Assembly (NCBI RefSeq): GCF_000368865.1
Contig: NZ_KB849726.1
Coordinates: 275,716 to 339,715 of the forward strand
Reading direction: 5' to 3'
Length of the DNA stretch: 64,000 nucleotides
Source: Acinetobacter bouvetii DSM 14964 = CIP 107468
Lineage (GTDB): Bacteria > Pseudomonadota > Gammaproteobacteria > Pseudomonadales > Moraxellaceae
In this document: positions 2,066 to 31,851 of the stretch, one piece after another
Position numbering within the stretch: position 1 is the stretch's first letter
How the letters are laid out: every line of letters starts with the position of its first letter
The notes under the pieces: model-generated
Told to the model about the DNA's origin: nothing
Seen by the model: the letters and a program-made list of their open reading frames with translations, nothing else
Databases searched by the model: none
Position numbers and translations under genes: made by a program

Positions 2066-2575
2066 CTATGGATGCGGCCGCCTGTCCTCGGGGGACAAGA
2101 TCATGTTGCGAATGCGCTTAAAAAAGATATCACGGGCGATATCTCCCTGCTGTTCAATATTGTAGTCAAAGTACTTTTTACCGGGCTGAAGCCGATATGC
2201 ATAGGGATTGTATTTGCCGAAACTTAAAAAGAAAGCGCTTTGCAGCAATGCGCCGCGCAGCAGGACATTGATGTTTTGCTGATACTGGTAAATATGCGCC
2301 ATTTCGTGAATAAAAAGCCCTTGATAGGAAAGGCTTTCCAATGAATAGTCATTGCTGAAGCAGGGCGAACGGGCGTGAATATTGCCGCTGGGCGCCATCA
2401 CAATATGCCTGGGCTGCCACGGCAAATACGGATGGTTCATCACTTTGACTTTGGAGTAGTCAATCAGGCCGCCAAAAACGCTTTGGCACAGCGCAATCTC
2501 GCCAGGCGTCAGCCCGCGGCATTTAAAGCGTTCCAGCTTTAAAAGTCGAATCAAGAGCGGCAGAAAATTGAACAT
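2066..2575 (-). CDS. Small HExxH-motif protein, possible zinc peptidase
   Basis: A protein of about 169 residues with the motif FIHEMAHIYQYQQN near its middle. HEMAH fits the HExxH zinc site of metallopeptidases, and the following text resembles proteins loosely annotated as Vgr-related or DUF4157-like. No signal peptide is obvious. The frame can be extended to a TTG at 2656 (196 residues), but the ATG at 2575 is the first good start; neither has a clear ribosome binding site. It is divergent from ravA, with about 130 bases between them. The function is unknown; the peptidase role is inferred from the motif alone. Confidence 0.65.
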   Translation of the reverse strand: MFNFLPLLIRLLKLERFKCRGLTPGEIALCQSVFGGLIDYSKVKVMNHPYLPWQPRHIVMAPSGNIHARSPCFSNDYSLESLSYQGLFIHEMAHIYQYQQNINVLLRGALLQSAFFLSFGKYNPYAYRLQPGKKYFDYNIEQQGDIARDIFFKRIRNMILSPEDRRPHP

Positions 2576-2707
2576 GGGGCAATGGCGGTGGCTGAGTACT
2601 GCCGATAAAGATAGCAAATTTTTAGGGCTGATTTTTAAAATCGTTAAATTTCGCAAACCGCTATTGCGCCGTTACAATAGGATTCTCTTTTTTCAGTGAT
2701 GTTTTTT

Positions 2708-4210
2708 ATGAAAGCGCGAATGCATGCACTCATTTCCCAAGTCAGTGAACAGATGTATGAGCGCGAGCAGATTATGGCGCTGAGTCTGCTGGCAGGCATT
2801 GCCGGCATGAATACCTTTTTGTACGGTTCACCGGGTACCGCCAAAAGCCTGATCTCCCGCCGTATAGCTTCTGCTTTTGAAGTAGGCGAATATTTTGAAT
2901 ACCTGATGAACCGCTTCAGCACGCCGGAAGAAATTTTTGGCCCAGTATCGATAAAAGCTTTAAAGGATGATCAGTATCTGCGTAAAACAGAACATTATCT
3001 GCCTAAGGCTGATTTTGCTTTTTTAGATGAAATTTGGAAGGCCAGCCCAGCCATTTTAAATACGCTGCTGACACTGATTAATGAAAAGACTTTTAAAAAT
3101 GGCGACATGATTCAGCATGTGCCGTTAAAAGTATTGATGAGCGCGTCCAATGAAATTCCTGAACCCAATCAAGGTTTAGATGCGCTGTATGACCGCTTTA
3201 TCCTGCGTTTAGTTGTGCCGCCTATTCAGCAGGCGCAAAATTTCCACGCTTTGCTGCAAGCCAAGCCCAGCGCAGCCAAAATAGAAGCGGCGGATGACCT
3301 GCGCATTAAAAAGCAGGAACTGCAGCAGTGGCGCGAACAAATCCATCAGGTGCAGCTGCCGGCGGAAGTTTTGAAAATCTTTGATGCGGTCAAGCAATCT
3401 TTAACTGACAGCTTTGAAGAGCATGCCGTTTATGTCTCTGACCGGCGCTGGCAGCGCGCAGCGTATTTGCTGAAAGCTTCCGCCTTTATTAATGACCGCA
3501 CTGAAGTGAATCTTTTGGATCTGTTTATTTTAAAGCACTGCTTATGGAGCCAGATAGATGACATTGATTTTGTTGCGCAGACCATAGAGCAGGCTATCTT
3601 AGAAATTGGCTTGGATTCAGATCTGGATTTGGCCGGCAGCATTGCGCAAAAAGAAGATGCCGAACAGCGGATTCTGAATCATTTTTATTATACCGATGAG
3701 GTTTATGCGAGCTATTTGATCTGCGGCCGTGAGTATTTAAAAGCTGTGACCAATTTGGATCATCATTATCAGGATAAAGTACTGTATTTAGAGCTGGATA
3801 AAATGGACAGCAAAAAAGATTTCTTTGCCGTGGATGAAAGCGGTGAGGAAATCCGCGGCATTGTTTGCAATTTCAATGGCGGGCGGCAGTGCACGTTAAA
3901 AGGCGGCTATTACGGTTTAGAAGAAGCGGTGACGCCTTATATTAAATATCCGAAGGGCAGTGCGCGTACCCAGCTGTCAGCGCAGGTTCAATATGACCTG
4001 CTGCATGAGGTGCAGGCGCTGCAAAGCAAGCTGAGCCACGATTATGCCGTGCTGCGGCAGAGGGTTGATGCGGCATCCGCGCATTTTGATTCAGACTTTG
4101 CCGCGCAGGACGATGCGGCCAAGCTGAAAGCGCAGCTGGCCCTGACGCTGCAGCGTTATGATCTGCAGCGTCAGGACTGCCAGCGTTTGGAACGCTTATG
4201 CCGAAATTAA
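2708..4210 (+). CDS. ravA: MoxR-family AAA+ ATPase RavA
   Basis: A hexameric-type AAA+ ATPase of the MoxR group, about 500 residues, close to the E. coli RavA length. Walker A is YGSPGTAKSLISRR and Walker B is in FAFLDEIWKASPAIL, followed by a sensor-like SASNEIPEP. The C-terminal half is lower complexity and matches the accessory part of RavA. The next gene overlaps it by 13 bases and encodes a VWA protein, the usual RavA partner, which strengthens the call. In E. coli, RavA-ViaA acts as a chaperone-like pair tied to respiratory complexes and the lysine decarboxylase; those partners are not shown here. GTG at 2696 and ATG at 2699 are alternative starts; the ATG giving MKARMHALIS is preferred. 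Confidence 0.9.
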   Translation: MKARMHALISQVSEQMYEREQIMALSLLAGIAGMNTFLYGSPGTAKSLISRRIASAFEVGEYFEYLMNRFSTPEEIFGPVSIKALKDDQYLRKTEHYLPKADFAFLDEIWKASPAILNTLLTLINEKTFKNGDMIQHVPLKVLMSASNEIPEPNQGLDALYDRFILRLVVPPIQQAQNFHALLQAKPSAAKIEAADDLRIKKQELQQWREQIHQVQLPAEVLKIFDAVKQSLTDSFEEHAVYVSDRRWQRAAYLLKASAFINDRTEVNLLDLFILKHCLWSQIDDIDFVAQTIEQAILEIGLDSDLDLAGSIAQKEDAEQRILNHFYYTDEVYASYLICGREYLKAVTNLDHHYQDKVLYLELDKMDSKKDFFAVDESGEEIRGIVCNFNGGRQCTLKGGYYGLEEAVTPYIKYPKGSARTQLSAQVQYDLLHEVQALQSKLSHDYAVLRQRVDAASAHFDSDFAAQDDAAKLKAQLALTLQRYDLQRQDCQRLERLCRN

Positions 4211-5640
4211 AGCTGCAGTCTGCCCAGCAGACAGCCAATGCGCTGACGGCAGTCACCGATCAGCTGTATGAGGAACTTCGCCAGTCCACATTAAAGCATT
4301 GGCTGGACGATGAAAAAGCGGCCAAGAAAATAGATGAAAAAGTGCATGCATGGGCTTATCAGGCTAAATCCAGCTTGGATCAGCAGCACCCTTATCAGGC
4401 GGTACAGCAGCAGCTGGAGGCATGGCTGGAAAAAAAGGCGGTTTCAGGCATTGAATTAGAGCTGATGCAGCAGCAGTTTCAGGATTTTCAGCAAGGGCTG
4501 GGCATTCCTGTTTTGGGGGGGGTATGGCAATTTCAGCAAAATGCAGTGCAGTCCAAAACCGCACTGCATCTGCAGTTTCAGCTGCTGCAGGAAAAATGGC
4601 AGCGCAAACTCACTGAAGCTGTTGCACAATGGGAATTTGAACAGCTGGCGCTGCAGCGTGATGCCTTTTTAGATGAAATTAAGGACTTTTTAGCCGCTTT
4701 GCAGAAAATGGCGAAACATAAGGATGCCTTTGGCGCAGATACCGGCATCTTTATTGATTACTCTAAAGGGCAGCTGACGGAACAGGATGTACAGCAGTTT
4801 GAAATGTGGAGCAATTATTTAGCGCAGGACAAAGCGCTGCAGAAGCTGTGCCAAATAATGGGCAGCGCCGAGCCTTCCAAATATAAACGCAAACCTTTAG
4901 CGGTGAATCCTGTGCAGGCGCAGCAAGCCCTGCCGGATCAGCGCGCCTTTGAAGAAATTACCGGCATCCATTTGTCTCAGCATTTGAATTTGGCGTTGCC
5001 CAGTGAGCTGGCGCTGCTGTCAGATCCGGATTTGCAGATTTTATTTGATCTGAAATATTTAGAATCGAACCTTTTGGGATTTCATTTGCAAGGCGAACAA
5101 AGCGGGCGCGTGATTGATGATCCGCGCCGGACCCGTAAAATGCGGGGTGAAAAAGGCCCGATGATTCTGTGTCTGGATACCAGCGGATCTATGCATGGAC
5201 AGCCTGAATTGATTGCCAAAGCCATCAGCTTGTATTTGGCCATGCAGGCCATGAAATCTAAACGGCCCATGCATATCATCAACTTTTCGACCAATCTAAC
5301 GGCCTTGGAGTTGCAGCAGGGCGATGCGCTGGATGACGTGATTCATTTTTTAAGCCAGTCCTTTCATGGCGGCACGGATATTGTTCCCGCCATGCAGCAT
5401 GCGGCAGACATGCTGCGCCAGCCGAATTTCAGCCATGCCGATGTGTTGGTGATCTCGGACTTTATCATGGGCGGTTTGCCGCCTGAATTAATGGAAGGCA
5501 TTGAGCAGCTGCAGCAGCAGGGGGTCGGCTTTTATGCGGCGGCTATTGGCAACTTCCGTATTGACCATCTGAATGACGCCTTGTTTGACCATCAATGGGT
5601 GTATCAGGCGAATACCGGAAAAGTAGAACAGCTGAATTAA
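4198..5640 (+). CDS. viaA: VWA-domain protein ViaA, RavA partner
   Basis: A 480-residue protein whose C-terminal third is a von Willebrand factor A domain with an intact MIDAS motif: DTSGSMHG near residue 327, followed by a GGTDIVPAM segment and VLVISDFIMGG. The N-terminal two-thirds is helical and glutamine-rich. The length is near that of E. coli ViaA. Its start codon lies inside the ravA end, so the two are almost certainly translationally coupled. The MIDAS metal site is expected to bind a divalent ion and mediate contact with RavA or substrates. The function in this organism is inferred from the pair. Confidence 0.9.
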   Translation: MPKLKLQSAQQTANALTAVTDQLYEELRQSTLKHWLDDEKAAKKIDEKVHAWAYQAKSSLDQQHPYQAVQQQLEAWLEKKAVSGIELELMQQQFQDFQQGLGIPVLGGVWQFQQNAVQSKTALHLQFQLLQEKWQRKLTEAVAQWEFEQLALQRDAFLDEIKDFLAALQKMAKHKDAFGADTGIFIDYSKGQLTEQDVQQFEMWSNYLAQDKALQKLCQIMGSAEPSKYKRKPLAVNPVQAQQALPDQRAFEEITGIHLSQHLNLALPSELALLSDPDLQILFDLKYLESNLLGFHLQGEQSGRVIDDPRRTRKMRGEKGPMILCLDTSGSMHGQPELIAKAISLYLAMQAMKSKRPMHIINFSTNLTALELQQGDALDDVIHFLSQSFHGGTDIVPAMQHAADMLRQPNFSHADVLVISDFIMGGLPPELMEGIEQLQQQGVGFYAAAIGNFRIDHLNDALFDHQWVYQANTGKVEQLN

Positions 5641-5885
5641 CTGGATCAGCAGGAGTGCAAAAAAGGCCCTGACCCTAATTGATATAAAGATGGCATTGAA
5701 TGAAAATTTCAAGGCCTTATTGTCTGACAATATTTTCAATCGGCAATATTTGCCAATTCAAAGATCATTTCTGCAAATGGCTTCATGGCGCGCATGTCTT
5801 AATTTTTGATCATATCCCTCAGTATTGATTGCTGAGACTTGATGCTTTCGTAATTGAATGCGAATACAAAAAAAGAGTAAGCGCT

Positions 5886-6842
5886 ATGCAAATAATCAGC
5901 CCAATCAAAAAAGCATTCAGCAGCGTATTGGCTGGCCCGGTTTTTAATGCCGCCAAGCAATCCGCCATTATTCCGATCCGGCACATGAAGTTCGAATTTG
6001 AGCCCGAGAAAATTGATCCTAAATTTTATATGAATGCAGAACTGGCCAGCGCCTATTTTGCATCGCTGTCGATTTTTCTGACTTTTGGCGAAGATTTGGT
6101 GATTGATACGGCGCGCTATCACCGCGATTTTGTGAAAGATCCTTTGCTGAAGCAGCGGGTAACCTCATTGATCGGCCAGGAAGCGCTGCATTCTAAGCTG
6201 CATGAAGAAATGAATGATGCCTATATGGCGATTGATCTGCCGGTGAAGCTTTTCCGAACCTTGGCGGGCTATGTCTTTGATTATGGCTTCAACCGCCTGC
6301 CGCAGCCGATGAAACTGTCGCTGATGGCGGGTATTGAGCATTTTACCGCCGTGCTGGCGGAATACATGATGAACCATGAGCAGATCTTCTTCGATTCTCA
6401 GGATGAAAAGCAGCGCGCTATTTGGCTGTGGCACATGCTGGAAGAGTCAGAGCATAAGGATATCGCCTACGATGTCTTTCAAAACCTGTCCAATAACTAT
6501 GCGCTGCGGGCGGCGGGATTCTTTGCAGCCCTGACCACCATTTTAGTGCTGATTTCCGCGGCTTCACTTGTGGTGCCGTTTTACCGCAAGCCTTCCAATC
6601 TGATCAGCGGCGCATATTGGAAAGATGTGCCGCGCAGTTTTCAGCTGATTTTTGGCTTAAAAGACGGCGTTTACGGCAGCAGCTGGAAGCATATTTTTGA
6701 CTATCTGCGTCCGGGTTTTCACCCGAATGATTACGATACTTCGGCATTTTTGGAGTATTACAAAGAGCGCCTGCTGCACCCGGAAACTGGCGTGCTGACG
6801 CCGTATTTTATCAAAGAATTCACACCCGCTTTAAAAGCGTGA
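5886..6842 (+). CDS. PF10118-type metal-dependent hydrolase
   Basis: A 318-residue protein with histidine/glutamate motifs expected of a diiron-like or metal-dependent fold: EALHSKLHEEMND, then EYMMNHEQ, then EESEHKDIAYDVF. These match the pattern of the PF10118 family, whose members are named metal-dependent hydrolases though their chemistry is poorly known. A hydrophobic stretch near residue 205-225 (FFAALTTILVLISAASLVV) may sit in the membrane. The ATG at 5886 was chosen; the frame opens earlier at 5829 with no family-like sequence. It is the first gene of a tight operon with a short-chain dehydrogenase and a flavin monooxygenase, which suggests a role in lipid or ketone oxidation. Confidence 0.8.
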   Translation: MQIISPIKKAFSSVLAGPVFNAAKQSAIIPIRHMKFEFEPEKIDPKFYMNAELASAYFASLSIFLTFGEDLVIDTARYHRDFVKDPLLKQRVTSLIGQEALHSKLHEEMNDAYMAIDLPVKLFRTLAGYVFDYGFNRLPQPMKLSLMAGIEHFTAVLAEYMMNHEQIFFDSQDEKQRAIWLWHMLEESEHKDIAYDVFQNLSNNYALRAAGFFAALTTILVLISAASLVVPFYRKPSNLISGAYWKDVPRSFQLIFGLKDGVYGSSWKHIFDYLRPGFHPNDYDTSAFLEYYKERLLHPETGVLTPYFIKEFTPALKA

Positions 6843-6877: not shown

Positions 6878-7741
6878 ATGGGATTCTTCAGTAAAAAGGC
6901 CATGCCCAGCTGCAATGCTTATGCGGTGATTACCGGCGCAGGCAGCGGCATTGGCCGCAGTTTTGCATTGGAAGTGGCGCGGCGCGGCGGACATATTGTC
7001 TGCGCGGATATTAATTTGGAGGCGGCGCAGGAAACGGCCGATTTGATTCAGTCCCTGACCGCATCCAATGCTTATGCCGTGCAGTGTGATGTGGGTGTGA
7101 AAGAGCAGGTGCAGGCGTTGTCTGAGCAGTCTGAACAGCTGCTGGGCCACCCTGTCACTTTGGTGATTAATAATGCAGGCGTGGGGCTGGGCGGCAAGTT
7201 TGATGAAGTCACTTTGGACGACTGGCAGTGGTGCATGCATGTCAATTTGTGGGGCGTGATACATGGCTGCCACTATTTTGTGCCGAAACTGAAGCAAAAT
7301 GGCGGCGGAGCCATTATTAATGTCGCTTCAGCTGCGGGTTTTACGGCAGCCCCTGAAATGACGGCTTATAACGTGACCAAGTCCAGTGTGCTGGCTTTAT
7401 CAGAAACCCTGTCTGCAGAGCTTCGCAGCGCCAACATCCGCGTCAATGTGCTGTGTCCGACTTTGGTGCCGACCAATATCATGAAAAATGGCCGTTTGCC
7501 GGAAAGTTATTCGGGGCTGGCGGACAAGCTGCTGATGAATCATGCTTTTACCACCAGCGATGCTGTGGCGCAGAAAACCTTGAATCAGCTGGATGCCAAT
7601 AAGCTGTATACCATTCCACAGCCGGACGCCAAGCTGTTTTGGTGGATGAAGCGCCTGTCACCGCAGCTGTATGCCAAACTTTTAGGGGTCGGCTATCCCT
7701 TATTCAACCGATATATGAAAAAAGCGGGAGCTGCGTCATGA
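6878..7741 (+). CDS. Short-chain dehydrogenase/reductase (SDR)
   Basis: A classical SDR of 287 residues. The cofactor motif is TGAGSGIG near the N-terminus, NNAG appears near residue 97, and the catalytic Ser-Tyr-Lys set is in NVASAAGFTAAPEMTAYNVTK. An aspartate after the second strand (CADIN) favours NAD(H) over NADP(H), by family rule. The start ATG follows an AAGGA ribosome binding site; an upstream in-frame GTG at 6839 overlaps the previous stop and is less likely. Its stop overlaps the start of the next gene (ATGA), so the three genes are co-translated. The substrate is unknown; a secondary alcohol or ketone linked to the neighbouring Baeyer-Villiger enzyme is likely. Confidence 0.88.
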   Translation: MGFFSKKAMPSCNAYAVITGAGSGIGRSFALEVARRGGHIVCADINLEAAQETADLIQSLTASNAYAVQCDVGVKEQVQALSEQSEQLLGHPVTLVINNAGVGLGGKFDEVTLDDWQWCMHVNLWGVIHGCHYFVPKLKQNGGGAIINVASAAGFTAAPEMTAYNVTKSSVLALSETLSAELRSANIRVNVLCPTLVPTNIMKNGRLPESYSGLADKLLMNHAFTTSDAVAQKTLNQLDANKLYTIPQPDAKLFWWMKRLSPQLYAKLLGVGYPLFNRYMKKAGAAS

Positions 7742-9351
7742 ATATGCCAACCGCATTGGATGCGGAAAACCGAATAGAAGAATCCGAAGGCGGCACTGCG
7801 CAGAAAAAAGCGCCAAGAAAGACCGTAGCCAAGAGCAATCTAAAAACCAAAACCTCAGCGCAGGCGGAAAATAGCAAAATTCAGCAGCCGTCTGCCCATA
7901 TTCATCTATATGACACCATCGTTGTCGGCGCTGGCATTTCCGGCATTGCCACTGCGCATAAGCTGACGCAAGTCGGTTATGAGGATTTTATCGTACTGGA
8001 AAAAGCCGGCCGTATCGGCGGAACGTGGCGTGAAAATACCTATCCGGGCTGCGGCTGTGATGTGCCATCCGCGCTGTATTCCTTTTCTTTTGCGCCTAGC
8101 CATCAATGGAGCAATCTGTTTGCCAAGCAGCCTGAAATTTTAAGTTACTTGGAACATGTGGTAGAACAGTTTGATTTGCAGGATAAAATTCTGCTGAATC
8201 ATGAACTGCAGGATGCGGTTTGGCAGGAAGATCAAAAGCGCTGGACACTGCAGACCTCACAGGGCGAGTTTTGGGCAAAGACGGTAATTTTTGGCACAGG
8301 CCCAATTACCGAACCGTCATTGCCAGCACTCAAAGGGATTGAAAGCTTTCAAGGTGAAATGTTTCATTCCGCGCGCTGGAATCATGATTATGATTTAACT
8401 GGCAAGCGGGTGGCGGTGATTGGCACAGGCGCTTCGGCGATCCAGTTTATACCGCAAATCCAGCCATTGGCCAAACAGCTGCACGTCTTTCAGCGTACAG
8501 CGCCTTGGGTGCTGCCCAAAGCGGATATGCAGCTGGGGGATGGCATGAAAAAATGGATCGCTCGGTTTCCGGCTGTTCAGCAGGCATGGCGCAAGAGTGT
8601 CGCGCAGATTCTGAATGGCATCAACTTCGGATTGCGCCATCCTAAAGCGCTGGAGCCGGTTAACTTTATCAGCCGGCAACTGCTGAAACTGCAAGTGCAA
8701 GATCCGCAGCTGTGCCAAAATGTCACCCCAAATTTTTCTATTGGCTGCAAGCGGCTGCTGTTTGCCAATAATTACTATCCTGCTTTGCAGCAGCAGAACG
8801 TCAGCCTGATTCCATGCGGTTTGGTGGAAATAGACGGCAATACCGTTGTGGCCGCCAATGGTGAACGGCATGAGGTTGATGTGATTATTTGGGGCACAGG
8901 CTTCGAGGTGTCGCATCCGCCGATTGGCAAGCGGGTGCGCAATGAACAGGGGGAATATTTATCTGAACTTTGGAAAAACAGTTCACCGGAAGCCTTTCTG
9001 GGCGCCAGCCTTGAGCAAGTGCCGAATGCCTTTTTAATTTTAGGCCCGAATATTTTGGTGTATGACTCCTTTATCGGCATTGCTGAAGCGCAGGTCGAAT
9101 ATATCGTCAGCGGCTTGCTGCAGATGAAAGAGTATCAGTTCACTAAATTCAGCATCAATCCAAAGGTTATCGAGCAGCACAATCATCAGGTGCAACAGCA
9201 TTTGAAGACCACTGTTTTTAATGCAGGCGGCTGCAGGAGCTACTATTTGGATCAAAACGGTAAAAATTTTGCGGCGTGGCCATGGTCGCTGGCGCAATTA
9301 AAACAGCGCTTAAATTCACTGAATTTGAAAGATTATGACTTAGAATTTTAA
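7738..9351 (+). CDS. Baeyer-Villiger-type FAD monooxygenase
   Basis: A 537-residue flavoprotein with an FAD-binding Rossmann motif (VVGAGISGIATAHKL), the Baeyer-Villiger fingerprint FQGEMFHSARW (FxGxxxHxxxW), and a second NADPH-binding Rossmann motif (VIGTGASAIQF). These enzymes insert oxygen next to a ketone to form an ester or lactone. Unusually, the first 55 or so residues form a polar extension rich in Lys, Ala, Glu and Gln before the FAD domain starts at LYDTIVVGAG. The start ATG overlaps the SDR stop. SDR, monooxygenase and hydrolase in sequence would fit alcohol to ketone to ester to acid. A terminator follows. Confidence 0.88.
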   Translation: MNMPTALDAENRIEESEGGTAQKKAPRKTVAKSNLKTKTSAQAENSKIQQPSAHIHLYDTIVVGAGISGIATAHKLTQVGYEDFIVLEKAGRIGGTWRENTYPGCGCDVPSALYSFSFAPSHQWSNLFAKQPEILSYLEHVVEQFDLQDKILLNHELQDAVWQEDQKRWTLQTSQGEFWAKTVIFGTGPITEPSLPALKGIESFQGEMFHSARWNHDYDLTGKRVAVIGTGASAIQFIPQIQPLAKQLHVFQRTAPWVLPKADMQLGDGMKKWIARFPAVQQAWRKSVAQILNGINFGLRHPKALEPVNFISRQLLKLQVQDPQLCQNVTPNFSIGCKRLLFANNYYPALQQQNVSLIPCGLVEIDGNTVVAANGERHEVDVIIWGTGFEVSHPPIGKRVRNEQGEYLSELWKNSSPEAFLGASLEQVPNAFLILGPNILVYDSFIGIAEAQVEYIVSGLLQMKEYQFTKFSINPKVIEQHNHQVQQHLKTTVFNAGGCRSYYLDQNGKNFAAWPWSLAQLKQRLNSLNLKDYDLEF

Positions 9352-9487: not shown

Positions 9488-10765
9488 TTAACGGCCTTGG
9501 ATATCGCGCTGAGTTTCGCCAGTGTAAAGCTGACGAGGACGGCCGATTTTGTAAGGACCGCTGTGCATTTCTAACCAGTGGCTGATCCAGCCAACAGTAC
9601 GTGCAAGCGCGAAGATTACAGTAAACATTTCTGTTGGGATACCAATCGCTTTAAGGATGATACCTGAGTAGAAGTCTACGTTCGGGTAAAGGTTGCGTTT
9701 GATGAAGTATTCGTCAGAAAGCGCGATACGTTCAAGTTCCATCGCAAGCGCAAGCTGTGGATCATTGATGCCAAGCGCAGCAAGAACTTCGTCGCAAGTT
9801 TCTTTCATAACTTTAGCGCGCGGGTCGAAGTTTTTGTAAACACGGTGACCGAAGCCCATCAGTTTAACTTCTTTAGTCTTCACTTTTTCCATGAAGCCAG
9901 CAACGTTTTCTACAGTGCCGATTTCATCAAGCATCTTAAGAACAGCTTCGTTCGCGCCGCCGTGAGCAGGGCCCCAAAGTGCAGAGATGCCAGCAGCAAT
10001 ACATGCATATGGGTTAGCGCCAGTAGAGCCAGCTAAACGTACTGTAGAAGTAGACGCGTTTTGCTCGTGGTCAGCATGAAGTGTGAAGATGCGGTCCATT
10101 GCTTTAGCAAGGATAGGATCAACTTTGTAATCGCGGTCTGCAGGAGTCGCGAACATCATGTGAAGGAAGTTTTCAGCGTAGTTCAAGTCGTTACGTGGGT
10201 AAACAAACGGTTGACCGATTGTGTACTTGTAGCTCCATGCAGCCAAAGTAGGAACTTTAGCAATTAAGCGGATCGCTGTAATTTCACGGTGGTCAACGTT
10301 TTCGATGTCCAAGTTGTTGTGATAGAACGCAGAAAGCGCGCCAACAACACCAACCATGATCGCCATAGGGTGAGCATCACGGCGGAAACCGTTGAAGAAA
10401 CGGCTAACTTGGTCGTGAACCATAGTGTGGTTACGAACTTTAGCGTCGAACTCTTCTTTTTGTTCAGCGTTTGGAAGTTCGCCGTTCAATAGGAGGTAAC
10501 AAGTTTCTAAGTAGTCTGCTTTAGTCGCAAGCTGGTCGATTGGGTAACCGCGGTGTAAAAGAACACCCTTGCCGCCATCGATGAAAGTGATTTTAGACTC
10601 GCACGCAGCAGTAGCCATAAAACCAGGATCAAAAGTGAAGTGACCTGCGGCCAATACATCTTTAACGTCGATTACATCTGGGCCCAATGTGCCGCTGTAA
10701 ATTGGTAATTCAATTTCTTTGCCATCAAGCTGTAAAACGGCTTTCTTGCCAGTTGCTTCAGACAT
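9488..10765 (-). CDS. gltA: Citrate synthase (type II)
   Basis: Condenses oxaloacetate with acetyl-CoA to give citrate, the entry step of the TCA cycle. The 425 residues match the long bacterial hexameric type. Catalytic landmarks are the histidine in GPAHGGANE, the histidine in [15 protein letters not shown], and the C-terminal aspartate region at [11 protein letters not shown]. An N-terminal beta-rich segment ([16 protein letters not shown]) is typical of the NADH-sensitive type II group. The ATG has a strong AGGAG ribosome binding site. It is divergent from sdhC across about 1 kb. Codon use is regular, as in a highly expressed gene. Confidence 0.98.
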
Positions 10766-24078: not shown

Positions 24079-26535
24079 ATGATCAATAAGACATATTTAG
24101 GCCAATTTTGCTTTTTATCGATTTTGACGAGTCTTCCAGTATTAGGGCAGGCTGATGATCTTGTTGATCAGCAGCGGGAAATAAGTGTTGCTGAAATCCG
24201 TGCCGGTAATACCGATCAAGGCTTTAATCAGTTAAAAGCATTATTGAAGCAGTATCCAGACAATCAGAAGCTAATCGCAGACTATATGGCGCTGCGCTAC
24301 GCAAATGCAAAATTTTCAGCCAATGATGCCGCATATCTGACGCAGATTGTGCCGGCTGAATTCCCAGACTACGGCAAAGTCAGTGTGATTAAAGGGCTGC
24401 GTGATCTGAAGCAGTATGATCAGGCGCTGCAGTGGACAGAAAAGTTTTATCAGACGGATTTATCTGAGCAATGGCCCATTTGGCAAGGCGTATTGCTGGC
24501 TGAGTCAGGGCAAAAGCAACGGGCGCGAGAGAAGTTTGCCCAGATGGATTTGCAGTTTTTTGAAGCCGATTATTTATCGCAGTTGGCCTATGCTTACCGT
24601 TTATTGGACATGCCCGCCGATTCATTGCATGCCGCTCAGCTGGCGCTGGATAAAAAAACGGATACCGATACTCAAGAACAGTATGTGCTGGCATTAATGC
24701 AAAACAGTGATTTTGTGAAAGCCGAACAATATATCCAGTCCAACGGCATGATTGCTTCACGTCCAGCATTGCAGCATCTTTTGAAGATGAATGAATTTTC
24801 ACAGCGCATTCAGCAAGGCATTCAAGCATCCAAAAATGCATTTGATATGAAGCGAGGGGTAGAGGCTTACGCATCTTTGGACAGTGTGATTGCGGATATG
24901 CAGGCTTATGAGCCCTCTTTGCCCGCGGATGAAGCCAGTAAGCGCAAATTTTATTATGAATACATTTTTGCCTTAAATGCCAGAAATGCCTCAAAGCAAG
25001 CGATTGCGCAAGTACGCAAAACTGGGCTGGATGCGATGGAAATGCCCGCTTATGTCCGTCATGCGCTGGCAGACAGCTATTTAAAAATCCGTCAGCCAAA
25101 ACGGGCGGAGCAGTTGTACAAGAGTTTGTTTGCAGAAAAAAATTATGCGGACTATAACGTGTATTCAGGGCTGTATTACAGTTTGATTGAGCAGGAAAAA
25201 TTTAAAGAAGCCAATCAGCTGATTGATGAAATGGATAAACAGCTGCCAACCTTTGTGTACAGTAATGCTAAAGGGGTGGATAAAGCGCCGCATGATGACC
25301 GGACAGAATTTATTGCCCTGAAAGGCCTGAACTATGCCTACAGAAATGAACTTGGCAAGGCTGAGCGGTATTTTAATGAATTGACCGCTAAAGCGGCGGG
25401 CAATATCGGCTATCAAAACAACTTGGCGCAGATTCAGCGCTGGCGCCAAAAGCCTGAGCAGTCGCAGCGCACTTTAGATCAGTTGAACAGTCTTGAACCA
25501 GTCAGTCAGGCCACGCAAATTAACCGCATGCAGAACTTTCAGGCGCTGAATCAGGTTCAGGCATGGCGGGCGATGAATCAATATCTGTTCAAGAATTTAA
25601 GCGAAGATACCGGTGTTCAGCAAAGCAAGAAGGAATTGGATGACCGCAATCGGGCGACGATCCAGCATCAAAGCGCTTTTTCAAAAAGTGATTCAGACAA
25701 TGACGCGCTGCTGGGGCGCTTAAAAGGTTCTCGCGAACAGGAGAACTGGACGCGCATCAATAGTCCTTGGTTCTATGAAAATTTCCGCCTTTTTGCAGAT
25801 CACAGCAACCGCTGGGCAAAGTATGAAACGGGAAAACTGAAAGATCAGCGCATTGGTGCGGGGCTGGAATGGTCTTCAGACCGTAAAGCCGCATCTGCTT
25901 TGCTGTCACAGAGTACGGATGGCGACCGTTTTGGCGTGCAGCTGAACTGGGCGCAGCGGCTGAGTGATCATTGGGATTATGCGCTGGGCTATGACAGCCA
26001 GGCGGATATTCCGCTGCAGTCTTTGGCGCAAGGCCATGAAGGCCAGTCGTATCTGTTCGGGATGAATTGGCAGCAGAACGAATCGCGCAAAGCCGGCGCG
26101 GCTTACCAATTGACAGATATCGATGATGGCAATACCCGTCAGGAGCTTTCAGCCTACTTTAAGCAGCAGCTGCAGCAGTCGCCGCATCATATTACAGCGG
26201 CAACCGTCCGCGGCTTTTACGGCCAAAATGATCAGGTTGATGTGCCGTATTTCAACCCTGAGCACAGTTACAGCGCAGAAATTACTTTAGAACACGACTG
26301 GATGACTTGGCGCAATTATGAACGCCATTTTAATCAGCATTTCGCAGCAACAGTAGGCACATTTGGGCAAAACGGCTACTCCGGCAAAGCGCTTTACAAT
26401 ATTTATTATCAGCATGACTGGCAGCTGTCCCGGACCTGGAAACTGAATTATGGCATAGGCTGGGGTTCACATCCGTATGATGGCGATGATGAAAATCGAA
26501 CCTATGCCACGCTTGGATTTGAGGGGCGCTTCTAA
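24079..26535 (+). CDS. pgaA: Outer-membrane PNAG export porin PgaA
   Basis: The outer-membrane protein through which partly deacetylated poly-beta-1,6-N-acetylglucosamine leaves the cell. The 818 residues show an N-terminal signal peptide (cleavage near VLGQA-DD), a long helical region of TPR-like repeats (about 30-520) that lies in the periplasm and binds polymer and PgaB, and a C-terminal beta-barrel (about 560-818) with alternating aromatic strands ending in ATLGFEGRF. The terminal phenylalanine is the usual outer-membrane sorting signal. The call rests on this architecture and on the operon with PgaB, PgaC and PgaD. Its stop overlaps the pgaB start. Confidence 0.93.
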   Translation: MINKTYLGQFCFLSILTSLPVLGQADDLVDQQREISVAEIRAGNTDQGFNQLKALLKQYPDNQKLIADYMALRYANAKFSANDAAYLTQIVPAEFPDYGKVSVIKGLRDLKQYDQALQWTEKFYQTDLSEQWPIWQGVLLAESGQKQRAREKFAQMDLQFFEADYLSQLAYAYRLLDMPADSLHAAQLALDKKTDTDTQEQYVLALMQNSDFVKAEQYIQSNGMIASRPALQHLLKMNEFSQRIQQGIQASKNAFDMKRGVEAYASLDSVIADMQAYEPSLPADEASKRKFYYEYIFALNARNASKQAIAQVRKTGLDAMEMPAYVRHALADSYLKIRQPKRAEQLYKSLFAEKNYADYNVYSGLYYSLIEQEKFKEANQLIDEMDKQLPTFVYSNAKGVDKAPHDDRTEFIALKGLNYAYRNELGKAERYFNELTAKAAGNIGYQNNLAQIQRWRQKPEQSQRTLDQLNSLEPVSQATQINRMQNFQALNQVQAWRAMNQYLFKNLSEDTGVQQSKKELDDRNRATIQHQSAFSKSDSDNDALLGRLKGSREQENWTRINSPWFYENFRLFADHSNRWAKYETGKLKDQRIGAGLEWSSDRKAASALLSQSTDGDRFGVQLNWAQRLSDHWDYALGYDSQADIPLQSLAQGHEGQSYLFGMNWQQNESRKAGAAYQLTDIDDGNTRQELSAYFKQQLQQSPHHITAATVRGFYGQNDQVDVPYFNPEHSYSAEITLEHDWMTWRNYERHFNQHFAATVGTFGQNGYSGKALYNIYYQHDWQLSRTWKLNYGIGWGSHPYDGDDENRTYATLGFEGRF

Positions 26536-28403
26536 TGAAAAGACAGTTTAGACAGCTATTTTTGAAGCAAGGCTTGGTCTTGGGGTTGCTGCTGCCATTC
26601 AGCGCAACTGCGCTGCAGGCAGCGAAGACCGCCGCGGTACGGATCAATGCGCCTTTATCTTTAAGTGAGGAACAGCAGCGCCAAAATCAATTTGTCACGC
26701 TGACTTTTCATGATGTGCGTGACGATGTGGCTAAAAGCGGCGACCGTGATGTGTATGCCATCAGCACGCAGAACTTAGGACAGTTTTTTGCTTGGATCAA
26801 GCGTGAGGGCTGGCAGCCAATCCGCCTGCAGGACGTAATGCAGGCGCGGCTGAAGCAGCAAAAACTGCCTGAAAAAGCCATTATGCTGACCTTTGATGAT
26901 GGCGCGCTCAGCAGCTACAGCAAAGTCTTTCCTTTGCTGAAAGCCTATAACTATCCAGCCGTATTCGCCATTCCAACCAGCTGGATTAACGGCAATACCA
27001 AAGATGCTTATGAGGCGTATGGTGAAGGCAGTTTAATGAACTGGGGCCAAATGCGCGAAATGCAGCAGTCCGGCTTGGCAGAGTTTGTCTCGCATTCAGA
27101 TAATTTGCATCGCGGCATCTTGGCAAATCCTCAGAAAAATATGGAGCCGGCGGCAATCACCCGGGAATACCTGCCTGCTGCAAACCGCTATGAAAATACG
27201 GCAGAGTTTGAAAAGCGCATTGTGAATGATTTGCAAAAATCAAAACAAGAGCTTGATCTTCAATTAGGGATTAACAGTTTGGCAATTTTTTGGCCTTATG
27301 GCGCTGTTACTCCTGAAATTGAAGGATTGGCGCGTCAAGCAGGCTTGCCGATGTCTTTCAGCTTAGGCAATGTGGTCAGTTTGGCGGATTCCATTCAGAC
27401 TTATCAGCGCATACTGATTATGGACAACCCGAGTCCTGAACAAATTCATCAGAACATGGATGATTTTATCAATGAAGCCCGCGCGCCGTATAAGCAGCGC
27501 AAAAGCTTTTTAAGCTTTAATTTGGCGGAACTGCAGTCCAAAACTCCTGAGGAATTTGACCAAAAGCTTGGTCAGCTGCTGGATCAAGTCAATGCATTGA
27601 AAAGCAATACACTGCTGCTGCAGGCTGCAATTGATCAAGACGGCGACGGGAAAATTGATGCGCTGTTTTTTCCAAATTCGAAGCTGCCGATGCAGCAGGA
27701 CTTGCTGAACCGTACCGTATGGCAAGCGAGAACCCGCATTTCAAACCGGGTCTATGCTGAACTGCCGGTCAGTCTGGAATTGCAGCAGGGCATTAATTTA
27801 GCTGATCTGACGGCAGACTTAATGAAAAACAACAGTTCATTGGAAGGACTGATTTTAGATCCAGGCAATGCGCTGGACTGCGCCATTAGCCAAGCGCAGT
27901 GGACCGAAGCTTGTACACAGCAAGTGAAACAGGTCATTGCCATCAAAGAGCAAAGCAAAGCGAGCGCGCATTACTATTCCAATATCAGCAATGATAATCA
28001 GACTGCCCTAAAGCTGAGTTTAAAAGGCAACCGCTTTGCAGGCTTAGAGCCTTTAGTTATGCAGGCCTTAACAGCATCGGATTTTTTGTATATCAGCTTG
28101 AATCCGGTGCAGCAGCCGGAAACGTTTAAAGCCTTTGTCAAAGCGCTGAATAGCTTAGGCGCAGAGCAAAAACAGCGTTTGATTGTCAGTTTAGACATTA
28201 ACCCGAAAATGAGCAGCAAAGACTGGGAGCGCTATCAGCAGAATTATCAGATGCTGCGTGCCGCCTCCATTCAAAAGATCGGCGTCAATAATTACCTGCT
28301 TCAGGATGGAGCTAGAGTACAGCAAAATCTGTATAAAAATTTAAGCATGAATGGCAGTCCGCTGACCTACCGCGATCCTTATCAGCAAGGAGGAACCAGG
28401 TAA
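26535..28403 (+). CDS. pgaB: PNAG de-N-acetylase PgaB
   Basis: A periplasmic polysaccharide deacetylase that removes some acetyl groups from PNAG so that it can be exported. The N-terminal CE4-type domain (about 50-310) has VTLTFHDVRDD, MLTFDDGALSSYSKVFP and the metal-histidine segment EFVSHSDNLHRGI. The C-terminal half (about 320-622) follows the outline of the PgaB hydrolase domain at its start (NTLLLQAAIDQDGDGKIDALFFPNSKLP), but the position where HDD-type acidic residues are expected reads GLILDPGNALDCAIS, so it looks catalytically dead. A signal peptide is present but no lipobox cysteine, unlike E. coli PgaB. It is 1 base overlapped with both pgaA and pgaC. Confidence 0.92.
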   Translation: MKRQFRQLFLKQGLVLGLLLPFSATALQAAKTAAVRINAPLSLSEEQQRQNQFVTLTFHDVRDDVAKSGDRDVYAISTQNLGQFFAWIKREGWQPIRLQDVMQARLKQQKLPEKAIMLTFDDGALSSYSKVFPLLKAYNYPAVFAIPTSWINGNTKDAYEAYGEGSLMNWGQMREMQQSGLAEFVSHSDNLHRGILANPQKNMEPAAITREYLPAANRYENTAEFEKRIVNDLQKSKQELDLQLGINSLAIFWPYGAVTPEIEGLARQAGLPMSFSLGNVVSLADSIQTYQRILIMDNPSPEQIHQNMDDFINEARAPYKQRKSFLSFNLAELQSKTPEEFDQKLGQLLDQVNALKSNTLLLQAAIDQDGDGKIDALFFPNSKLPMQQDLLNRTVWQARTRISNRVYAELPVSLELQQGINLADLTADLMKNNSSLEGLILDPGNALDCAISQAQWTEACTQQVKQVIAIKEQSKASAHYYSNISNDNQTALKLSLKGNRFAGLEPLVMQALTASDFLYISLNPVQQPETFKAFVKALNSLGAEQKQRLIVSLDINPKMSSKDWERYQQNYQMLRAASIQKIGVNNYLLQDGARVQQNLYKNLSMNGSPLTYRDPYQQGGTR

Positions 28404-29680
28404 TGGAACAATGGATAACAGATTTGAGTTTTAATGACTTGTTCTTTGGCTTTGCCTTTTTATACCCGCTGTTTATGGCATGGGTTTGGATTGCCGGCGG
28501 CATCTGGTTTTATTTAAAGCGTGAATGGAAACAGCCGGAATTGCCCGTGCCAAGTAATGCCGGCTGCAGCATTATTGTGCCGTGCTTTAATGAAGAAGCA
28601 CAGGTGCATGAAACCATCCGTTTTGCCATGCAGACACAGTATCCGAACTTTGAAGTGATTGCGGTAAACGACGGCAGCCGAGACCGGACGGGTGAAATTT
28701 TAGACCGGCTGGCGGAACAGTATCCTAAACTGCGCGTGGTGCATCTGGCGGAAAATCAGGGCAAAGCTTATGCGCTGCGGGCTGGCGCAATGGTCAGCCA
28801 ATTTGAGTATTTGGTTTGCATCGATGGTGATGCGCTGCTGCATCCGCATTCTGTGCTGTGGATGATGCACCATTTAACCAGATTCCCGCGGGTGGGCGCG
28901 ATCACTGGAAATCCGCGCATTGTGAACCGTTCCAGCGTTTTAGGCAAAATTCAAGTCGGAGAATTTTCTTCAATCATTGGCTTAATAAAGCGCGCGCAGC
29001 GGACGTATGGCCGTATTTTTACGGTATCAGGCGCTATAGCGGGTTTCCGCAAAACAGCCTTGGACCGGATCGGCTACTGGCGTGATGACATGATTACAGA
29101 AGATATCGATGTGTCGTGGCGCTTGCAGTTTGATCATTGGGACTTGCACTATGTGCCGCAAGCGCTGTGCTATATCTACATGCCTGAAACGTTTAACGGC
29201 TTGTGGAAGCAGCGCCTGCGCTGGGCGCAAGGCGGTATTGAAGTGCTGTTTGCGTATTTGCCGAAAATCTGTAAATGGCATTTAAGGCGCATGTGGCCAA
29301 TTGCTTTTGAATCCATCATCAGTGTGCTGTGGGCGTACACCATGTTTGGGATTTTTCTGCTGTATTTCTATGGGCTGTTTTTCTCGCTGCCAGGCGAATG
29401 GGCAATTCAATCGCTGATTCCGCAATGGTATGGCGTGATCTTGGGTTTGACCTGTTTAATCCAATTTTTGGTGAGCCTTTGGATTGACCGGCCCTATGAT
29501 AGGCACCGCATGCTGCGCAATTATTTTTGGGTGATTTGGTATCCGCTGTTCTTCTGGATCTTGGCCATGCTGACAACGGTATTTGCCTTGCCGAAAACCA
29601 TTTTTAAAACGCAGAAACGCGCCCGCTGGGTCAGCCCAGACCGCGGTTTTAGAGGGGAGGAAAACAATGAGCCAAGTTAA
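28403..29680 (+). CDS. pgaC: PNAG synthase glycosyltransferase PgaC
   Basis: A family 2 glycosyltransferase in the inner membrane that polymerises UDP-GlcNAc into beta-1,6-linked PNAG. The 425 residues begin with a membrane segment (LFFGFAFLYPLFMAWVWIAG), then the catalytic domain with VNDGSRDRTG, CIDGDALL, the acceptor-site TEDIDVSWRL and the QRLRWAQGG motif. At least three further membrane helices follow (about 305-400). All core GT2 motifs are intact. It overlaps pgaB by one base and pgaD by 14 bases, so the whole operon is tightly coupled. Confidence 0.96.
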   Translation: MEQWITDLSFNDLFFGFAFLYPLFMAWVWIAGGIWFYLKREWKQPELPVPSNAGCSIIVPCFNEEAQVHETIRFAMQTQYPNFEVIAVNDGSRDRTGEILDRLAEQYPKLRVVHLAENQGKAYALRAGAMVSQFEYLVCIDGDALLHPHSVLWMMHHLTRFPRVGAITGNPRIVNRSSVLGKIQVGEFSSIIGLIKRAQRTYGRIFTVSGAIAGFRKTALDRIGYWRDDMITEDIDVSWRLQFDHWDLHYVPQALCYIYMPETFNGLWKQRLRWAQGGIEVLFAYLPKICKWHLRRMWPIAFESIISVLWAYTMFGIFLLYFYGLFFSLPGEWAIQSLIPQWYGVILGLTCLIQFLVSLWIDRPYDRHRMLRNYFWVIWYPLFFWILAMLTTVFALPKTIFKTQKRARWVSPDRGFRGEENNEPS

Positions 29681-30269
29681 TGATCTAGCGCAGAAGCCAG
29701 CCAATGCTGCTAAATTCCGCATTATCGAAAATGAGTCATTGCTGGAACTGCCGGAATATATCGATGTTCATGGTCCAGTACAGAAGCCAGCCAATACAGC
29801 TGAATTCCACATCATCAAAGATGAGGCTTTGCTGGAACTGCCGGAATATATCGACCAGCCTGAATATGTACGCCGCAAAACTGCAGGCTATAGCTTAATG
29901 GCTGTTGGCTGGATGTTTTGGATGGGGCTGTTTATGCCTATATTAACCCTCATGTTCTGGTGGTTTGAAGGCGCGGTGGCGTATACGCAGGTCATTGAGC
30001 AGATACAGCCTTTGACTGGCATTTCTATCTTGAAGCTGATGGCCTGCATTGGCATTTTGATCGGCTGCCTATTTGTCTGGGCCGGTTATAACTGGGTGCG
30101 TTTTCATGGCAAAGACCGGCGCAAGGCGCCAGACAATGTGAATGATGATGCTCTGGCGCAAAGCTTTAATGTCCAAGCGAGCGATATTGCGAAAATGCGC
30201 CAGTCCAAGAACATGACCCTGCATTACTCAGAAGAAGGGCGGCTGGAAAATTATCGAATCAATCGCTAG
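29667..30269 (+). CDS. pgaD: PNAG synthesis accessory protein PgaD with duplicated N-terminus
   Basis: A small inner-membrane partner that activates PgaC, by analogy with E. coli, where the pair responds to cyclic di-GMP. The 200 residues hold two transmembrane helices (about 77-101 and 118-145) with a charged cytoplasmic tail. The N-terminus contains a tandem repeat: residues 9-33 (QKPANAAKFRIIENESLL...) and 39-63 (QKPANTAEFHIIKDEALL...), encoded by two copies with a 90-base period. This makes the protein longer than the E. coli form (137 residues, from memory). The ATG at 29667 follows a GGGAGG site inside the pgaC end; the frame is open from 29583. Confidence 0.9.
   Translation: MSQVNDLAQKPANAAKFRIIENESLLELPEYIDVHGPVQKPANTAEFHIIKDEALLELPEYIDQPEYVRRKTAGYSLMAVGWMFWMGLFMPILTLMFWWFEGAVAYTQVIEQIQPLTGISILKLMACIGILIGCLFVWAGYNWVRFHGKDRRKAPDNVNDDALAQSFNVQASDIAKMRQSKNMTLHYSEEGRLENYRINR
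29691..29855 (+). repeat. Tandem 90-base duplication within pgaD
   Basis: Unit 1 starts at 29691 and unit 2 at 29781. The first 75 bases of each unit agree at about 65 positions by eye, with most differences scattered, so the copies have diverged since duplication while the reading frame has been kept. Confidence 0.85.
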
Positions 30270-30326
30270 AGAATTGATGATCCGGCAGCGCTGTTGGAAG
30301 CATGCCGCATTCGTCAGGCTGCTGTG

Positions 30327-31628
30327 TTATTCAGCTTTTGCAAATGCATCTTTCAGCTGCTTGGCATCCGGATGCCCTTGCACAAAATCATCAGGATAAT
30401 AGCCTATATGCTGAACGCCATTCTGCTCCAGCAATTGTATGGTGTCGATTAACTCTTCATCAGCTATTTGATTTTGATGATTCCAGTCAGTGGCCTGCAA
30501 TTCAAAAATGGTACGGCTCAAATTTGGGTCGTATTTTTTTGCCCGCTGAATCAAGTCTAAATAAAATTGACGGTGATCGTCAGCTTTTTCCATATAGGGC
30601 ATCGCCATAATGGCATTATAGTCATAGTGTTGATAGGTGCCGGCATTGGATTGGCTGAACCATTTTTCACTGTCTGGATTCAGTACGGCTTCTGCATACA
30701 TGTTGCGGGCAAAGCGTAGATTCGGCTCGCGCTGTTTCAATATTTCGCTGATGCCTGCGGCGAATTGATCTAAATAGGCGGTTTTATAGCGGGAAAATTT
30801 TAACTGATGCGGATGTTCCGGCTGCTCAATCAAGGATGCGCTGTTAAAGCCCCATTTTTGATAGGCGGCATGGGCCGGCGCGCTGTCATCTTCAAAATCG
30901 CTGAGGGTAATATCATCATGATACAGAATGCCGTCAACAGGGTTCTGCTGAATGAAGTCTAAAAATATTTCAGCGGTATACTGCAGATTTTTTGCATCAA
31001 AAGGCGAAACGCGGATGTAGCCTTTCTTTCCGCCGCTATTCTGCACGTACTGCAATTGATACTTTTTAGGGAATTCCCACGCGATTAATGGCAGCCAGCC
31101 ATATACCGCCTGGACTTGCGTATGCTGGCGGATCTCCAGCAGCACGCGGTGAAATAAATCTTCGCGCAGCGGGATGTGCCTGTTTTGAAAATAAACGGCA
31201 TTGGCTGAACCATTGGCATCAGGATCGGCAAAGGCCTGCAAAAAAACAGTATTGGGCTGAATGGTTTGAATGCGGCGGATAAGTTCCCGAAGATTGCGCT
31301 TTTGCTGTATTGGGTCGGCATCATAAACGTAGTCTAAATCAATATGCATGATGCGCATGTTCTGCTGCTGAGCAGTCCGCAGTTCAGCTGTTTTTTGCCG
31401 CGCAGGCGCAGACGCTGCATAGCGCTTCACTAAGTCTTGAATGGGATGCTGCGCAATTTGCACAGTTTCGGCATTGCAGGTTCCTGCAATTGCTAAACCC
31501 ATGCAGGCCAATATGCTCAGCAGCTTCGACTGCATAAGCAGAACGGGCTTAAATCTTAGTTTTTTTTGCGCCAGTCTATGCGGCCTTAACTCACGCATTG
31601 GCGATTTTTTTGAACGCTTGAATTGCAT
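30327..31628 (-). CDS. Stand-alone PgaB C-terminal-type PNAG hydrolase (GH153-like)
   Basis: This 433-residue protein corresponds to the C-terminal hydrolase domain of E. coli PgaB, without any deacetylase domain. Visible matches to that domain are MHIDLDYVYDADPIQQKRN, TVFLQAFADPDANG, RVSPFDAKN, GILYHDDITLSDFEDDSAP (the acidic catalytic region), FARNMYAEAV, AIMAMPYMEKAD and GYYPDDF. A signal peptide or anchor ends near AGTCNAETV. The start is uncertain: ATG 31628 (used), 31598, 31535 or the far end 31730. It converges on pgaABCD with a 57-base gap. It probably cuts PNAG in the periplasm, aiding export or trimming. Confidence 0.85.
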   Translation of the reverse strand: MQFKRSKKSPMRELRPHRLAQKKLRFKPVLLMQSKLLSILACMGLAIAGTCNAETVQIAQHPIQDLVKRYAASAPARQKTAELRTAQQQNMRIMHIDLDYVYDADPIQQKRNLRELIRRIQTIQPNTVFLQAFADPDANGSANAVYFQNRHIPLREDLFHRVLLEIRQHTQVQAVYGWLPLIAWEFPKKYQLQYVQNSGGKKGYIRVSPFDAKNLQYTAEIFLDFIQQNPVDGILYHDDITLSDFEDDSAPAHAAYQKWGFNSASLIEQPEHPHQLKFSRYKTAYLDQFAAGISEILKQREPNLRFARNMYAEAVLNPDSEKWFSQSNAGTYQHYDYNAIMAMPYMEKADDHRQFYLDLIQRAKKYDPNLSRTIFELQATDWNHQNQIADEELIDTIQLLEQNGVQHIGYYPDDFVQGHPDAKQLKDAFAKAE

Positions 31629-31793
31629 TTCTTGATCTTTTTTTGATGTATTTGATGTTGTTAATATAGAGGAATGCAATGAAAGAATGAAAGTGTGATT
31701 TGGTTGACGCTTTGTTGCTGATGCGGTCATGCCGGTTTTACAAGAGCCGGTGCTGTTTTCGGGTTTGTGAATAGGGGCGCATCACAACCCGCT

Positions 31794-31832
31794 ATAAAAA
31801 ACCGCGGCCATTCAGCCGCAGTTTTAAAAGGG
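31794..31832 (-). terminator. Intrinsic terminator of yqiJK
   Basis: On the minus strand AAACTGCGGC TGAATG GCCGCGGTTT forms a stem with one G-U-type mismatch, followed by a T-run. It lies about 20 bases past the yqiK stop. Confidence 0.8.
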
Positions 31833-31851
31833 AACATTGCGCTGGCCTGAA

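Follow-up and report, generated by a model that had tools for sequence, protein, structure and literature searches.

The genes for the export of poly-N-acetylglucosamine (PNAG), pgaA-pgaB-pgaC-pgaD, lie downstream of sucCD in a 64,000-nucleotide stretch of Acinetobacter bouvetii DSM 14964 = CIP 107468 (contig NZ_KB849726.1, positions 275,716 to 339,715; the whole stretch is referred to here as the window), and converge with a gene for a single-domain protein of glycoside hydrolase family GH153. The PgaB of this pgaABCD operon (PgaB2) retains its deacetylase site and a C-terminal barrel from which the GH153 active site has gone. That site is intact both in the stand-alone GH153 protein (SGH) and in a canonical second PgaB (PgaB1). 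We think it likely that the two jobs of a canonical PgaB are divided between proteins in Acinetobacter PNAG export. This reading draws on sequence states, in-silico structures, co-occurrence and neighbourhood, all of which were observed, and would imply that the cell needs a cutting enzyme.

A sequence-only reading of the window had proposed that cleavage moved from PgaB to the neighbouring hydrolase. The genome of the window carries both SGH and PgaB1. The latter, the third protein of this genome to match GHL13, is encoded on another contig and has both canonical PgaB domains and an intact His-Asp-Asp (HDD) motif; cleavage has thus not simply moved next door. The proper wording is that it was lost in one PgaB and is supplied by another GH153 protein.

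The operon PgaB and its C-terminal barrel

The genus survey began with a first draw of 119 Acinetobacter genomes and was extended to all 175 after the pattern had appeared. Sites were read in an alignment of 111 sequences (37 PgaB1, 22 SGH, 51 PgaB2 and E. coli PgaB), which excludes identical proteins and the duplicate loci L003 and L035. With the extension, 74 PgaB2 (51 from the first draw and 23 further; 73 from PgaA-bearing genomes) and 31 SGH (22 and 9) were read. For PgaB1, the motif was read in 37 different sequences; 114 of the 175 genomes have a PgaB1 match. Residues are numbered as in E. coli PgaB, whose D320, D322, D358, D472 and E576 correspond, counted along the alignment, to D326, D328, D364, D480 and E585 of Bordetella PgaB. 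E. coli D466 equals Bordetella D474 (PMC13366581), the probable catalytic acid of GH153 (PMC5933820; this and the other papers are cited from excerpts of their text).

PgaB2 of the window exceeds the curated cut-off of the TIGR03938 equivalog (420.3 against 321.9 bits), with only positions 1-369 of 621 matched, and Pfam GHL13 matches it only at profile positions 10-93 of 324 (84 bits). Its segment GLILDPGNALD pairs with GILYHDDITLS of SGH in the 111-sequence alignment and in an independent profile-profile alignment, and reads D/P/G at H465/D466/D467. The proposed absence of an HDD-type acidic site from the C-terminal half is thereby borne out, with no intact catalytic acid placed there by alignment with a known PgaB. 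None of the 74 PgaB2 has Asp at the D466 place (0/51 in the first set, 0/23 further) or His at the H465 place (0/51 and 0/23), and the catalytic His-Asp of GH153 is accordingly absent. A shifted alignment hiding the acid was rejected, as the profile-based alignment agrees and, in the 51-sequence alignment, no single acid is conserved among the PgaB2 at any of the three motif places. PgaB2 also lacks E576 (Bordetella E585), R537 and the groove aromatics W400, W552 and Y645; W613 is kept in 45 of the 51. Asp occupies the D322 place in only 4 of 51, and the D472 place is Cys in 46 of 51, with a second Cys 11 residues further on (46/51). This pair suggests a possible disulfide where the acid loop was.

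The deacetylase residues H55, D114, D115, H184 and H189 are intact in all 50 readable PgaB2 of the first set and in all 23 further ones, and PgaB2, the window's copy included, thus has the residues of a CE4 deacetylase. The AlphaFold2 model of PgaB2 (mean predicted local distance difference test score, pLDDT, of 81.7) includes an eight-stranded barrel towards the C-terminus and matches E. coli PgaB 4f9j over both domains (Z 28.7). As had been claimed, the outline of the hydrolase domain is preserved: the predicted barrel matches the E. coli C-terminal domain 4p7o with Z 27.2 and a root mean square deviation (rmsd) of 2.8 for 273 residues at 18% identity. Given this fold match and the loss of the motif, the barrel has been kept and the site lost. 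PgaB2 is therefore predicted not to cut PNAG.

The stand-alone GH153 protein beside pgaD

The convergent open reading frame (30327-31730) matches Pfam GHL13 over positions 1-324 of 324 with 366 bits (367 for SGH itself; cut-off 27), and the gene encodes only a GH153 domain with the acidic motif intact, as the sequence-only reading had it. That reading placed the gene at 30327-31628. The gene is real, and its start is uncertain: 31535, giving 402 amino acids, fits the homologues better than 31628, with 31598 and 31730 as other alternatives. The 402-residue form opens with Met and a stretch that, by eye, resembles a signal peptide. HDD is present in all 22 first-draw and all 9 further SGH, and in all 37 PgaB1. 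SGH keeps D320, D322, D358, H465, D466 and D472 in 31/31 sequences and E576 in 30/31, the only one without it being the broken, truncated L087. The AlphaFold2 model (mean pLDDT 81.9) superposes on the GH domain of Bordetella PgaB 6au1 with Z 42.8 and an rmsd of 2.4 for 342 residues at 40% identity, and reaches Z 42.2 with 4p7n; the best non-PgaB family reaches only 27.5. SGH therefore has the full-length profile match, the fold and the catalytic residues of GH153, including those equivalent to Bordetella D326, D328, D364, D474 and E585, and chance similarity is rejected by the profile and structural matches. SGH is predicted to cut deacetylated PNAG.

The median ratio of non-synonymous to synonymous substitution (dN/dS), from the 27 of 120 pairs that were usable (93 were dropped for saturation), is similar in SGH (0.075) and the deacetylase domain of PgaB2 (0.078), and higher in the PgaB2 barrel (0.131). 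Purifying selection acts on SGH, and the barrel is relaxed yet constrained, as expected of a domain that is non-catalytic but used. An annotation artefact or pseudogene is rejected for the window copy by its open frame, its conservation and dN/dS. SGH is probably its own transcription unit, because a strong hairpin resembling a terminator lies at the end of the flotillin gene upstream (-21.3 kcal/mol, z -3.87); a consensus scan of the region did not list this hairpin (31798-31825).

The convergent arrangement recurs across the genus: SGH converges with pgaD in all 28 genomes having both PgaB2 and SGH (20 including that of the window, and 8 further). G029 and G1123 have lost the pga genes, so that sucD lies directly next to SGH, which is itself damaged (by a stop in G029, with a shortened match in both). 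Among 35 loci from named species, largely the same genomes as the survey, SGH is present in 20, which include A. pragensis, A. amyesii, A. kyonggiensis, A. harbinensis, A. bouvetii, A. terrae, A. terrestris, A. kookii, A. kanungonis and A. schindleri. In the same set, no SGH lies beside pgaD in A. junii and A. indicus, or in A. pittii, A. nosocomialis, A. seifertii, A. calcoaceticus and A. lactucae of the A. baumannii complex; A. baumannii itself lies outside these 35 loci. In one locus (L050, G034), the end of sucD is repeated beyond SGH at 86% similarity (2192-2494 and 10486-10764). Direct sucD repeats thus flank pgaABCD and SGH, which may therefore have moved as one unit.

Distribution and ancestry in Acinetobacter

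The PgaA porin occurs in 74 of the 175 genomes, every one of which encodes a GH153 domain besides PgaB2: SGH only in 13, PgaB1 only in 47 and both in 14. Since 47 of the 74 combine PgaB2 with PgaB1 and have no SGH, a simple transfer of cleavage to the neighbouring gene is not supported at the genus level either. In the first draw, 50 genomes have PgaA and 51 have PgaB2 (G030 is cut by a contig end); the latter divide into 11 with SGH and PgaB1, 9 with SGH only, 31 with PgaB1 only and none with neither. The rest of that draw comprises 34 genomes with PgaB1 and neither PgaA nor PgaB2, 2 with SGH and no PgaB2, and 32 with none of these. The 24 PgaA genomes added after the pattern was seen repeat it (16 PgaB1 only, 5 SGH only, 3 both, 0 neither), and 23 of their 24 PgaB2 were readable, with the deacetylase site kept in all and the GH153 Asp in none. 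Among the 101 genomes without PgaA, 57 have a GH153 match. Within the PgaA genomes, Fisher's test of SGH against PgaB1 yields 1.9e-7, or 5.3e-7 without the 80%-complete G114, for species that are related to one another. On the PgaB2 deacetylase tree, PgaB1 changes 6 times in a smaller set and 8 times in a larger one (the truncated G030 was left out of both, and G1081, at a contig end, of the larger), and a branch-length estimate for the same co-occurrence gives 0.002 and 0.02, respectively.

PgaB1 of the window's genome (L088, G000:C3:488373-498347; 2207-5905, minus strand) lies in a pgaB-pgaC-pgaD cluster without pgaA. In 53 of the 175 genomes, PgaB1 is present and there is no PgaA_barrel match.

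In the GH-domain tree (72 rows, leaving out all PgaB2, 22 of 37 PgaB1 and L146-L149), SGH forms one clade (100/100) that joins the PgaB1 group of the Moraxellaceae (100/100); its placement next to or inside this group has weak support (89/41). In the deacetylase trees, which leave out 31 of 51 PgaB2 and 25 of 37 PgaB1, PgaB2 joins other gammaproteobacterial PgaBs (98/94 and 100/93; 97/92 and 100/95 without the aberrant row L145). Grouping SGH with these gammaproteobacterial relatives of PgaB2 is rejected by the approximately unbiased (AU) test (p 0.00025), and a clade uniting the deacetylases of PgaB1 and PgaB2 has p 0.008 with L145 and 0.079 without it. As the common clade is not rejected without L145, an origin of PgaB2 separate from the PgaB1 line is favoured, not settled. 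L145 (G153:C43, 6194-8062, plus strand), from another Moraxellaceae genus, is a PgaB-like protein that mirrors PgaB2: its GH153 HDD is intact, its deacetylase residues are A, D, E, E, N in place of H, D, D, H, H, and it has no CE4 Pfam match.

Fission, in which SGH would be the detached half of PgaB2, was rejected, as PgaB2 retains a full degenerate barrel. Because PgaB2 still has a barrel of its own, SGH is to be seen as a copy, most likely an added GH153 copy that derives from the PgaB1 line, shed its deacetylase half and came to lie next to pgaABCD. The split arrangement of the sequence-only reading thus holds, genus-wide, as an inactive-looking barrel plus a stand-alone GH153 protein; it gives way in that SGH is an added copy, tied by the tree to the PgaB1 line. 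A true relocation, in which SGH was copied from the GH domain of a PgaB2 ancestor whose own domain then decayed, PgaB1 being unrelated, would suit the position of SGH beside pgaD, its placement not clearly inside the PgaB1 group and the joint deacetylase clade that survives without L145. We nevertheless consider it improbable: the best deacetylase trees place PgaB2 elsewhere, SGH is barred from the relatives of PgaB2, the site is absent from all 74 PgaB2, also where there is no SGH, and SGH would have to have been lost in the PgaB1-only half of the genus.

Proposed division of labour and known systems

We propose that PgaCD would make PNAG, and that PgaB2 would remove some of its acetyl groups and hand the chain to PgaA. 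The PgaB2 barrel would probably hold or escort the polymer without cutting it, dock on PgaA, or both. SGH, PgaB1 or both would cut the partly deacetylated PNAG in the periplasm, which could limit chain length or clear stuck chains, roles that have been proposed for polymer-cutting enzymes (PMC5933820). Each of these functional steps is predicted from homology. A stronger form holds that every PNAG-exporting Acinetobacter needs a GH153 cutter in trans, that SGH and PgaB1 are interchangeable in this role, and that the Cys-rebuilt PgaB2 barrel is a non-cutting module for escort or PgaA docking; it is plausible, and we hold it with slightly more doubt than belief.

Several observations weigh against the division of labour. 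PgaB2 retains Asp at the D320 place in 34 of 51 sequences and at the D358 place in 43 of 51, and may thus have some unforeseen catalysis. That the barrel is active through another arrangement of residues, with nothing divided, would fit these acids and the retained fold, and the E. coli domain was once wrongly judged inactive by earlier workers (PMC5933820). However, PgaB2 has lost the probable acid and the His next to it, as well as E576, R537 and three aromatics of the groove; two Cys stand there instead in most sequences, and the barrel dN/dS is relaxed, so that we regard such activity as highly improbable. Independent-pair sign tests of the co-occurrence, for species that are not independent, are not significant (p 0.5 in the smaller set, 0.25 in the larger). 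The sole GH153 protein of G054 is a PgaB1 with a stop after 73 residues, its GH frame of 599 amino acids remaining open. Outside the genus, L146 (G669:C1, ~6980-8029, minus strand) encodes a 599-residue PgaB with intact deacetylase residues and a lost GH153 site, and the G669 genome has no other GHL13 match; a cutter in trans is therefore not universal. The consensus scan found no sigma-70-like promoter site upstream of SGH, and what stands of the earlier suggestion of an own promoter is the separate transcript favoured by the hairpin. Finally, a deletion between sucD and pgaD in G038 (L086, 1964-4149) has removed pgaA, pgaB and most of pgaC, and pgaD and SGH remain open despite this loss.

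The survival of SGH in G038, together with its signal-peptide-like N-terminus (by eye) and likely transcription unit of its own, would also agree with an outward-acting enzyme for dispersal or scavenging, similar in purpose to dispersin B and no part of export. We consider this unlikely, as nothing indicates secretion of SGH across the outer membrane, its position behind pgaD is fixed, it is damaged in both genomes from which the entire pga cluster has disappeared, and purifying selection on it is as strong as on the deacetylase.

Compared with the PgaB of E. coli and Bordetella (CE4 plus GH153; PMC5933820), PgaB2 shares the domain order, the deacetylase site and the barrel fold and differs in having no GH153 active site; SGH matches the GH153 domain of that protein but is encoded by a separate gene without a deacetylase. 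E. coli PgaB has a lipobox-like Cys, and the PgaB2 N-termini, judged by eye, have none. A. baumannii has two pgaB genes, with AbPgaB2 in pgaABCD and AbPgaB1 in a cluster without pgaA, and deletions suggested that both deacetylate (PMC9935895, a study that works on AbPgaB1). This is the same two-PgaB layout as found here; the excerpts of that study mention neither that AbPgaB2 has lost its GH site nor a stand-alone GH153 protein. A partial pga duplication in A. baumannii, treated as such in the excerpts of PMC7112194, is likely the PgaB1 cluster; our trees favour, not decisively, separate PgaB1 and PgaB2 lines. BcsZ, AlgL and PslG are stand-alone periplasmic enzymes of other polymer systems (PMC5933820). 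SGH would resemble them as a separate periplasmic cutter of the polymer that its own system exports, but they belong to other families, and SGH, a GH153 protein, lies off the operon strand.

The full-text literature searched, with subscription papers mostly outside reach, describes neither the loss of the GH site from PgaB2 of Acinetobacter nor a stand-alone GH153 protein. A natural separation of PNAG binding from cleavage in a known export system, as predicted here, thus appears new. The purpose of GH153 cleavage in PNAG production has been described as open, and in E. coli removal of the GH153 domain blocks export, but the truncated proteins are also degraded (PMC5933820), and binding and cutting could therefore not be told apart. 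With the two on separate genes, as proposed, loss of SGH in species that have no PgaB1, such as A. schindleri, A. harbinensis, A. terrestris or A. amyesii, would bear on cutting alone. A protein annotated as 'PgaB' in Acinetobacter, relatives of A. baumannii among them, need not have hydrolase activity, and SGH, with its predicted activity, would give biofilm research a small, naturally occurring GH153 enzyme.

Table 1. Features of the pga locus, in window coordinates
Feature	Position	Strand	Evidence
pgaA, outer-membrane PNAG porin with tetratricopeptide repeat region	24079..26535	+	TIGR03939 423.8 bits, over cut-off; PF21197 E 7e-41
pgaB (PgaB2), 622 amino acids	26535..28403	+	TIGR03938 420 bits, PF01522, PF14883 partial
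PgaB2 domains: CE4 deacetylase, ~residues 50-305; degenerate GH153-type barrel, ~residues 321-608
Lost active site of PgaB2, D442-P443-G444, at the place of E. coli H465-D466-D467	27858..27866	+	two alignments
Two conserved Cys, PgaB2 residues 449 and 460	27879-27914	+	alignment, 46/51 PgaB2
pgaC, PNAG synthase	28403..29680	+	TIGR03937 565.8 bits
pgaD, start codon inferred (open reading frame opens at 29583)	29667..30269	+	PF13994 E 5e-25; TIGR03940 81.5 bits
SGH, stand-alone GH153, signal-peptide-like N-terminus	30327..31535	-	PF14883 1-324/324, 367 bits
Intact His-Asp-Asp of SGH, residues 206-208 of the 402-residue form	30912..30920	-	alignment; 31/31 SGH read
Terminator-like hairpin then T run, between flotillin gene and SGH	31798..31825	-	fold of 31780-31835

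The pgaA gene of the window is the sole PgaA_barrel match in its genome, and the pga region is nearest that of A. pragensis, with 82-84% identity between the PgaB proteins. The pga operon of a more distant genome (L143, G1054:C2, 6854-8068, plus strand) encodes a GH153-only protein without a deacetylase domain between pgaA and pgaC, with a GH5 gene downstream.

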